Positions 42,767-43,536 of a stretch of 64,000 nucleotides of DNA are shown here, in pieces. The stretch is from Sphingomonadales bacterium Ga0077559 (GTDB taxonomy: Bacteria > Pseudomonadota > Alphaproteobacteria > Sphingomonadales > Sphingomonadaceae). Under the pieces are notes generated by a model. That model searched no databases. It was given only the letters and a program-made list of their open reading frames with translations, and was not told where the DNA came from. Position 1 is the stretch's first letter. Every line of letters begins with the position of its first letter. The stretch is from assembly GCA_001464315.1 (NCBI GenBank), contig LNFK01000072.1, positions 1 to 64,000 of the forward strand, given 5' to 3'. The translations under genes and the position numbers were made by a program.

Positions 42767-42803
42767 AATTGGGCTAGTTGCAAAACGCGCAACTAGCCCA
42801 ATT
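42767..42803 (+). terminator. strong hairpin terminator after the dehydrogenase-SDR operon
   Basis: AATTGGGCTAGTTGC (42767-42781) pairs perfectly over 15 bp with GCAACTAGCCCAATT (42789-42803), loop of seven, followed by CTTTTCG. It should stop transcription from the SDR gene, separating it from the non-coding region that follows. Confidence 0.75.
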
Positions 42804-42850
42804 CTTTTCGCAATTGCAGCAAAACCACCGCGTGGCTATTTGGTGTGCAA

Positions 42851-42954
42851 CGGCAAGAGATTGCCGAAACGCACTTTAACCGGCGGGCTCTCTCCTCCTC
42901 TCTCCCTCGCCCCCGGTTGAATCGAACGGCCTCCATGCACAGCGTGGGGGCCGT
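42851..42954. ncRNA. candidate structured RNA segment with an all-pyrimidine loop
   Basis: Three consecutive hairpins occupy about 100 bases without a credible gene. (1) CGGCAA-GAGA-TTGCCG at 42851-42866, a perfect 6-bp stem with a GNRA loop. (2) ACCGG and GGGC (42879-42888, one bulged C) pair with GCCC and CCGGT (42909-42917); the loop 42889-42908 is 20 pyrimidines containing CCTCC. (3) ACGGCCTCCAT (42926-42936) pairs with GTGGGGGCCGT (42944-42954) allowing G-U pairs. On the plus strand the CU-rich loop resembles anti-Shine-Dalgarno loops of alphaproteobacterial regulatory RNAs such as the SuhB/ar14 class, which I cannot confirm. Strand is not settled, since the minus strand folds too. Confidence 0.4.
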
Positions 42955-43063
42955 ATTCGTAAGGGCTCCAGACTTGTTCTCCAACTTGTCCACCGCAAAC
43001 CTATCTGCCTGTGGATAACTTTACATTTTTATGTTTGCGCGACTCGGTTTTCATGACAAATTT

Positions 43064-43408
43064 AAGTCATCGGGCAGGACCGCCACGATGCAAAGCTGGA
43101 ACGGAAACGGGAAAGCGGAGCGGAATGGTTCTAATGTCAGGTCACCAAATCAGCAGGCAGACCGGTCGCAAGACAGGGAAATGTGGCAGAGGCGGTGGGT
43201 ACAAAGACAACGAATATCATGTGCGGCGACACGCAAGTGGAGCAACGCCGGATAGGATACCCACAGTACCAAGGCGAACCAACATGGCCTTCGGGCCAAG
43301 TTGGGGAACCGGACGTCAGAGAGCGGAAAGAATGATCTTCGGGTCAAGGACTTCCAACATCAGACGCAGTGGCCGCTGGTAGCAATACCAGCGGCCATTT
43401 ATCTTTTT
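43064..43408 (+). ncRNA. candidate structured non-coding RNA ending in a terminator
   Basis: About 345 bases lie between a possible promoter (TTGCGC 43035-43040, 17-base spacer with a GACTC site, AAATTT 43058-43063) and a strong terminator. No frame here looks like protein. Helices seen: GTGGGTA (43195-43201) with TACCCAC (43258-43264); CCAAC-AT-GGCC-TTCG-GGCC-AA-GTTGG (43279-43304), a UUCG tetraloop hairpin with a symmetric 2x2 internal loop; GATC-TTCG-GGTC (43334-43345); and the terminator stem with a GCAA loop. I compared it mentally with RNase P, SRP, tmRNA and 6S RNA signatures and found no convincing match, so it is left unassigned. Confidence 0.5.
43370..43408 (+). terminator. Rho-independent terminator of the candidate RNA
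   Basis: TGGCCGCTGGTA (43370-43381) pairs perfectly over 12 bp with TACCAGCGGCCA (43386-43397) around a GCAA tetraloop, followed by TTTATCTTTTT. As the upstream operon already ends at 42803, this terminator implies a separate transcript between them. Confidence 0.8.
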
Positions 43409-43443
43409 GGGCATTGCCATTACAGCAGCAATTACGTGTTTTT

Positions 43444-43536
43444 GGTCATCCCCGCGAAAGCGGGGATCCAAGGTCTCATTCTGAAGCGTAAACCGCCAAG
43501 TTTGACCATGGACCCCCGGATCAAGTCGCGGGTGAC
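43444..43536. repeat. REP-like palindromic repeat pair
   Basis: ATCCCCGC-GAAA-GCGGGGAT (43448-43467) is a perfect hairpin inside GTCATCCCCGCG...GGATCCA, and about 40 bases on, GGACCCCCGGATCAAGTCGCGGGTGAC forms the imperfect inverted partner. Paired elements with GTCATCCCCGCGAAAGCGGG are widespread intergenic repeats in alphaproteobacteria. The element lies between the candidate RNA terminator and purL. Confidence 0.7.

Follow-up and report, generated by a model that had tools for sequence, protein, structure and literature searches.

The DNA analysed here, called the window, comprises the first 64,000 nucleotides of contig LNFK01000072.1 (assembly GCA_001464315.1) from Sphingomonadales bacterium Ga0077559, and the question that it raises is what is encoded by the gap between a short-chain dehydrogenase/reductase (SDR) operon and purL. 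An earlier note had described this gap as lying between two terminators and holding no credible gene, and had proposed that it yields a single RNA of about 345-570 nt or else two. In all likelihood this gap contains two noncoding RNA genes that are independent of each other, RNA A (about 120 nt) and RNA B (about 340 nt); two genes fit best because genomes G019 and G009 keep A without B, and because in other genera no A-like loop word lies within 260 nt upstream at 34 of the 41 B-like loci. B is almost certainly a real, conserved, noncoding and structured RNA gene. Probably, B is a replication-coupled, trans-acting structured RNA under a DnaA/GANTC-controlled promoter, and A is a separate small RNA. 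Two features go beyond the earlier note, namely the DnaA-box/GANTC block in front of B and likely relatives of B in other genera.

The forward strand of 42847-43413 folds at -220.8 kcal/mol, against -186.8 kcal/mol (standard deviation 7.0) for 100 shuffled sequences, none of which was as low (z -4.84); for the reverse strand z was -2.07, with 2 of the 100 shuffles as low. The consensus structure predicted by RNAalifold from 37 B sequences contains 64 pairs, 29 of them with at least one double change (16.6 in shuffles), and the double changes occupy 142 cells (39.8 in shuffles). Pair cells were paired in 96.8% of cases, against 90.5% when shuffled and 31-38% when the partners were slid, a comparison in which the structure has a head start over the slid controls because it was derived from the same alignment. 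The alignment energy lay below all 60 tree-based nulls (z -9.8 for clade 1, -7.1 for clade 2, and -12.9 for all sequences together) and below all 30 column shuffles made for each of the two clades, with no pooled set (z -10.4 and -9.8); the antisense strand was also low in the column shuffles (z -8.7 and -6.9), as is expected of a complementary strand. Separate folds of the two clades led to a similar 3' architecture, in which the closing helix reads CGUC/GACG in one clade, CGCC/GGCG in another, and CACC/GGUG in G030.

The individual helices reported before were found again on reading the sequence: the 15-bp stem at 42767-42803, the GAGA-loop hairpin at 42851-42866, the UUCG hairpins at 43279-43304 and 43334-43345, and the pyrimidine-loop stem at 42875-42921. 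The 7-bp long-range stem (43195-43201 with 43258-43264) is likewise present in the window, yet it is fully paired in just 2 of 26 close relatives and was rejected as a conserved helix; it is replaced by an overlapping 5-bp stem, GGYAC/GURCC, which is fully paired in 26 of 26 close relatives, with a double change to GGCAC/GUGCC in four. The second terminator with its GCAA loop and T tail was borne out by a terminator scan, which placed the hairpin at 43368-43399 with 14 pairs including one G-U. The scan alone is no proof, since its 2 sites on both strands compare with a mean of 1.7 in shuffles, and the SDR terminator stem was not reported by it.

The absence of known RNA signatures was upheld by covariance search: at the window locus, no Rfam 15 family scored at or above its gathering score, matches at a permissive threshold being far below it, and no match was obtained in the 27 related loci tested. 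The 6S RNA of the host genome (a single covariance-model match) and its RNase P RNA lie on other contigs, and a known RNA family was thus rejected for the locus. No RNA matching B was found among the matches listed in the literature searched, the scope of which stopped short of supplements and most subscription papers.

B is purine-rich (mean fraction 0.63 over 37 sequences, about 14 GGA motifs). The view that the gap lacks a credible protein gene was upheld; codon periodicity is absent from B, and six open reading frames (ORFs) gave no Pfam match. Substitutions per codon phase numbered 105/112/118 in 21 clade-1 sequences (p 0.68; the window species and its four closest relatives were left out) and 60/56/54 in 8 clade-2 sequences (p 0.85), with three outliers outside both sets; the first part of purL from 13 of the same genomes, used as a control, gave 12/10/158. 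Frame-breaking insertions or deletions relative to the window species occur in 25 of 25 close relatives.

Among 45 Sphingorhabdus genomes, 39 matched the region by BLAST, of which 37 carry B and two (G019 and G009) carry A only. G028 was added by the covariance model (110 bits) and contains A as well, read by eye, so that B is found in 38 and A in 40 of the 45. In G019 and G009 the SDR gene is followed by A with its terminator-like stem and then by purL, B being missing. Of the first 30 loci, 24 have the SDR gene and 22 have purL by tblastn; these loci reach just about 1.5 kb to each side and in some cases stop at a contig edge; in G001 and G029, genes other than purL lie downstream of B (ORFs judged by eye). 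The B-terminator pattern occurred in 31 contigs among 84,980 species genomes, all with sphingomonad labels (Sphingomonadales, Sphingomonadaceae, Sphingorhabdus, and Sphingopyxis, including Sphingorhabdus rigui, S. contaminans, and S. profundilacus), and the host is taken to be a Sphingorhabdus.

The block in front of B contains two DnaA-box-like sites, of which the second reads CTGTGGATA in 34, CTGTGGACA in 2, and CTGTGGGTA in 1 of the 37 genus sequences; TTATCCACA we take to be a DnaA box. CGACTC is found upstream of B in 37 of 37 genus sequences, 20-21 nt past the TGTGGATAA-type box 2, and is immediately preceded by a TTG-type -35-like element in 11 variants, e.g. CTTTGCGCGACTC. The spacing between the DnaA-box-like sites and GANTC is nearly fixed. 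On our reading of the alignment, a -10-like element would follow, with a predicted start at about 43069. The host genome encodes GcrA (a Pfam match in two pieces, each within a 286-aa open frame) and a methylase-like ORF with a RAMA domain that resembles CcrM. A GANTC motif lies within or beside the predicted core promoter in all 37 genus sequences of a lineage whose host genome has both GcrA and a CcrM-like gene. GANTC is the CcrM site that is bound by GcrA, with protection from -35 to -10 at ctrA P1 (PMC3667746). Control of B by DnaA and by GcrA/CcrM is, as judged from these elements, quite probable.

To find B elsewhere, a covariance model of its 3' domain was built from 25 of the 37 sequences and run on 396 genomes of the order, including 8 of this genus. 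It matched 118 of the 396; many matches cover the terminator only and were not counted as relatives. Of nineteen loci that were inspected in detail, L154 is G028, a member of the genus, and L132 was rejected as a chance match, made up of coding sequence and a terminator; the other 17, all from outside the genus, are candidate relatives. The likest of these (e.g. L126, L128, L129, and L133) retain CCGGACGCC..GGCGCAGUGGG; residue alignments were examined for eight covariance-model matches in all. In 13 of the 17, a TATCCACA-type box in one or the other orientation precedes a CGACTC at the expected promoter place (11 loci read directly, and L139 and L149 via L220 and L216 of the layout search).

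The promoter layout was also searched for directly in the 396 genomes. For TTATCCACAG-N24..28-CGACTC, 51 genomes matched and the backward control gave 0; for TGTGGATAA-N19..22-CGACTC, the figures were 34 genomes, including five from this genus, and 11 for the control (control sums counted from tables). All matches fall within this family. At 59 of 87 layout places examined, 45 had a strong terminator-like hairpin within 900 nt downstream, including the unusual L204 and L205 and the weak L256, compared with 3/59 and 2/59 in upstream control stretches; four further loci carry a GCAGTGG motif only. The 45 loci span 11 other genera (g23, g30, g31, g33, g34, g36, g39, g45, g47, g60, and g64), with one weak case in g61, and the hairpin lies 260-750 nt beyond the layout in other genera. 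At the 41 loci where a script fixed the end, the B-like RNAs measure 264-743 nt with a mean purine fraction of 0.59. Neighbouring genes vary between genera (17 loci, longest ORFs by eye), and B therefore looks like an autonomous gene. The candidate diverged 3' domains, taken with the layout, suggest common descent with B. Separately, in 13 g27 genomes (e.g. G306:C1:2153699-2153741), TTATCCACAGGCTGTG.. is followed by CGACTC, apparently another conserved DnaA-box site.

RNA A consists of hairpin 1 (42851-42866), a pyrimidine-loop hairpin (42875-42921) whose loop is UCUCUCCUCCUCUCUCCCUC (42889-42908), and a terminator-like stem at 42926-42954 with a weak U tail. In 38 sequences folded singly (G028 and G016, in which A is on another contig piece, were omitted), the pyrimidine-loop stem varies by lineage (CCGGCGGGC/GCCCCCGG, GGGCCGGGC/GCCCGCCC, CUAGCAGGC/GCCUGCUAG, CCAGCGAGC/GCUCGCUGG), and the loop word is UCUCCUCCUCU or near it, with an altered, C-richer loop in G017, G068, and G067. 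This stem derives from the single-sequence folds, since RNAalifold on the 38-sequence alignment gave 18 pairs (5 with double changes) and did not predict it. Many relatives have a U-rich stretch after the second stem, ACGGCC..GGCCGU, but the window species does not; its tail is GUAUUCGUAAGG. A may be a small trans-acting RNA that exposes an anti-Shine-Dalgarno-like loop and could pair with Shine-Dalgarno sequences. In its promoter region the TTTTCGCAATTGCA block is nearly invariant (38 sequences), while the -10-like part varies. The A-like loop word upstream of 7 of the 41 B-like loci is clustered in 3 only, all in g64; at these loci (L128, L129, and L133), the B-like RNA is preceded by a hairpin that resembles A in having a CCUCCUCCC-like loop and a terminator-like stem of its own. 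To judge from these three loci, the A-B pair may predate the genus. The features of the locus are listed in Table 1.

Table 1. Positions of the elements of the SDR-purL gap in the window
Feature	Position	Strand	Basis or conservation
Intrinsic terminator of the upstream SDR operon, 15-bp stem, arms AATTGGGCTAGTTGC / GCAACTAGCCCAATT	42767-42803	+	sequence read; stem retained with changed bases (20-sequence alignment)
Predicted promoter of RNA A: TTGCAG 42814-42819, 17 bp, TATTTG 42837-42842	42814-42842	+	suggested by comparison
RNA A	42849-42970	+	predicted ends; seen in 40/45 genus genomes
DnaA-box-like site 1, TTGTCCACC	42986-42994	+	TCCAC core in 37/37 genus sequences
DnaA-box-like site 2, TTATCCACA on the minus strand	43010-43018	-	CTGTGGATA in 34/37 genus sequences
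Predicted promoter of RNA B: TTGCGC 43035-43040, GACTC (GANTC) 43041-43045, CAAATT 43057-43062	43035-43062	+	comparison
RNA B, structured purine-rich noncoding RNA, about 340 nt	43069-43408	+	5' end predicted from alignment
Conserved long-range stem GGUAC 43198-43202 / GUACC 43266-43270	43198-43270	+	26/26 close relatives paired
3' domain: closing helix CGUC 43314-43317 / GACG 43363-43366, inner GGAA/UUCC, UUCG hairpin	43314-43366	+	alignment
Intrinsic terminator of RNA B, 14 pairs, GCAA loop, U tail	43368-43408	+	scan and alignment

Two observations were made at the borders of the locus. The SDR terminator stem and the adjoining TTTTCGCAATTGCA block (42767-42818) repeat TTGCA/TGCAA words, and this block, almost invariant among the aligned genus sequences, is possibly an operator. 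Directly downstream of RNA B, at 43446-43475, lies a palindromic repeat with the core CCCCGCGAAAGCGGGG; it has one copy only in the window, while similar copies of about 25-39 bp are numerous and scattered across genomes of the genus and of other families of the order, and it looks like a dispersed element of the repetitive extragenic palindromic type.

Other explanations of the locus were weighed against the same data. That A and B, which are adjacent and co-occur in 38 genus genomes, form the 5' and 3' parts of a single transcript, about 560 nt long and started at the A promoter, would agree with the weak U tail of A in the window species; it is an unlikely reading, as A occurs without B in two genomes, B has its own conserved promoter-like block, and in other genera the A-like loop word accompanies few B-like loci. 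B has purL just behind it at 22 of the first 30 loci, as would suit a leader RNA or attenuator of purL; this reading is highly improbable given that a full terminator hairpin closes B about 260 nt before purL, that other genes follow B in G001 and G029, and that the flanks differ between other genera. Still less credible is a short protein gene, whether on the forward or the reverse strand: long runs lack a stop (85 codons on average, compared with 68 when shuffled) and some relatives are open over the whole length of B, but the purine richness may explain this scarcity of stops, and the flat codon phases, set against the strong periodicity of purL, the broken frames in all 25 close relatives, and the lack of a Pfam match speak against translation.

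It could also be the DNA that is conserved, as a DnaA-titration or replication-control site or an origin, with transcription incidental; the DnaA-box-like sites and GANTC are among the best-conserved parts, and such sites belong to replication control. The boxes are few, however, and the 340 nt downstream retain RNA structure and a terminator, with two-sided helix changes. In G031 (3.46 Mb) the GC-skew minimum falls at about 2.60-2.77 Mb and B at 2.93 Mb; in G401 (3.04 Mb) the minimum falls at about 2.0-2.5 Mb and the B-like RNA at 2.94 Mb. A position of B at the replication origin was rejected on these skews, which are coarse (twenty 15-kb samples per genome) and come from two genomes other than that of the window. 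This DNA-site explanation is accordingly held to be improbable, slightly more so than the single transcript. Finally, B might act as a sponge, either for RNA A or, in the manner of CsrB, for CsrA. Its purine richness and GGA motifs would fit, and Caulobacter CrfA, with a G/A-rich loop, sponges anti-Shine-Dalgarno small RNAs (PMC12559287). Pairing of the A loop with B scored -18.3, against a mean of -20.2 for shuffled B (220 of 300 shuffles as low), so that specific A-B pairing was rejected as no better than with shuffled B, and a CsrB-like sponge was rejected because the host genome, rated 99.78% complete, gave no CsrA match. A sponge is about as unlikely as the single transcript.

The reading of B as a replication-coupled, trans-acting RNA must itself be set against several observations that weigh against it. 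A consensus scanner found no sigma-70 promoter in the region, so the promoters of A and B both rest on comparison. B is absent from 7 of the 45 genus genomes, in which it would be dispensable; in five of them (G005, G010, G012, G022, and G035) neither A nor B was detected, A having been sought by BLAST only. The conservation and covariation that the earlier note had named as a check held in so far as the locus is kept in relatives with two-sided helix changes, but not under the strict test: an R-scape-like per-pair analysis of the 37-sequence alignment (tree-based null, G statistic with average product correction, 60 null alignments) gave 0 pairs at E<0.05, a test whose power is limited by the two deep clades. 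Outside the genus, much of the covariance-model score at candidates other than the likest ones comes from the terminator, CGACTC is missing at the expected place in 3 of the 17 candidates (L134, L135, and L138) and L140 was left unplaced, and 10 of the 59 examined layout loci lack both a terminator and the GCAGTGG motif. Thirteen of the 51 layout matches, all in g27 and sharing GGCTGTG after the box, look like a different site; they were set aside and none is among the 59 loci. Transcription of B, its timing, any function in trans, and the action of DnaA, GcrA, and CcrM are deduced from sequence.

With these points in mind, the proposed course of events for the replication-coupled RNA is as follows. 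B would be transcribed from a sigma-70-type promoter, at which the DnaA-box-like sites and the GANTC directly after the -35 element would let DnaA and GcrA time transcription; the action of GcrA would depend on methylation and so link synthesis of B to chromosome replication. Its own terminator would end B, and the folded, purine-rich RNA would then act in trans on RNA or protein. The conserved DNA elements are most naturally read by DnaA and by GcrA in its methylation-dependent mode, and B would for that reason most likely be made at a set time of the cycle; since its likely relatives recur behind a DnaA box and a methylation site, B may be an RNA not described before that is linked to the replication cycle. 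We give even chances to a trans-acting, replication-timed role. More tentatively, at somewhat less than even chances, B may found a class of structured RNAs of about 260-740 nt that are licensed by DnaA/GANTC, pulsed once per replication round, independent of the origin, and regulate in trans the cell cycle or some other global process. If so, control of the cell cycle at the RNA level would extend beyond Caulobacter, to an RNA whose promoter reads like an input from the replication clock, whose likely relatives span a dozen genera of a large family of environmental bacteria, and which had no Rfam 15 match at the loci tested. The motif layout (DnaA box, fixed gap, TTG-CGACTC) could be used to find further such genes.

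Compared with known systems, B is like 6S RNA and RNase P RNA in belonging to the housekeeping-RNA size class and unlike them in that both are encoded elsewhere in the genome. Its predicted promoter resembles GcrA/CcrM promoters of the ctrA P1 type (PMC3667746) in having GANTC beside the -35 element, inside the GcrA-protected region; it differs in that it would drive a noncoding RNA and has DnaA-box-like sites about 20-28 nt upstream of GANTC. RNA A shares an anti-Shine-Dalgarno-like pyrimidine stretch with the alphaR8 RNAs SisA-D, whose core UUUCCUCCCU is described as single-stranded (PMC12559287); A instead holds its motif in a stable hairpin loop, and that 10-mer is absent from A as read. 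CrfA has a second loop that is G/A-rich (PMC12559287), as is B, whereas A-B pairing is at chance. The closest functional parallel to B would be CcnA, a cell-cycle noncoding RNA of Caulobacter crescentus that lies in the origin, has a CtrA box, and pairs with the 5' untranslated regions of ctrA and gcrA (PMC8959179). Both are alphaproteobacterial noncoding RNA genes with DnaA boxes, the tie to CtrA/GcrA/CcrM being a deduction for B. They are likened by description and not by sequence: B, of about 340 nt and with GANTC in its predicted promoter, lies off the origin in two sampled genomes. Given the origin position and the CtrA box of CcnA, membership of B with it is not claimed, and the parallel is offered as one of function, without a claim of kinship.
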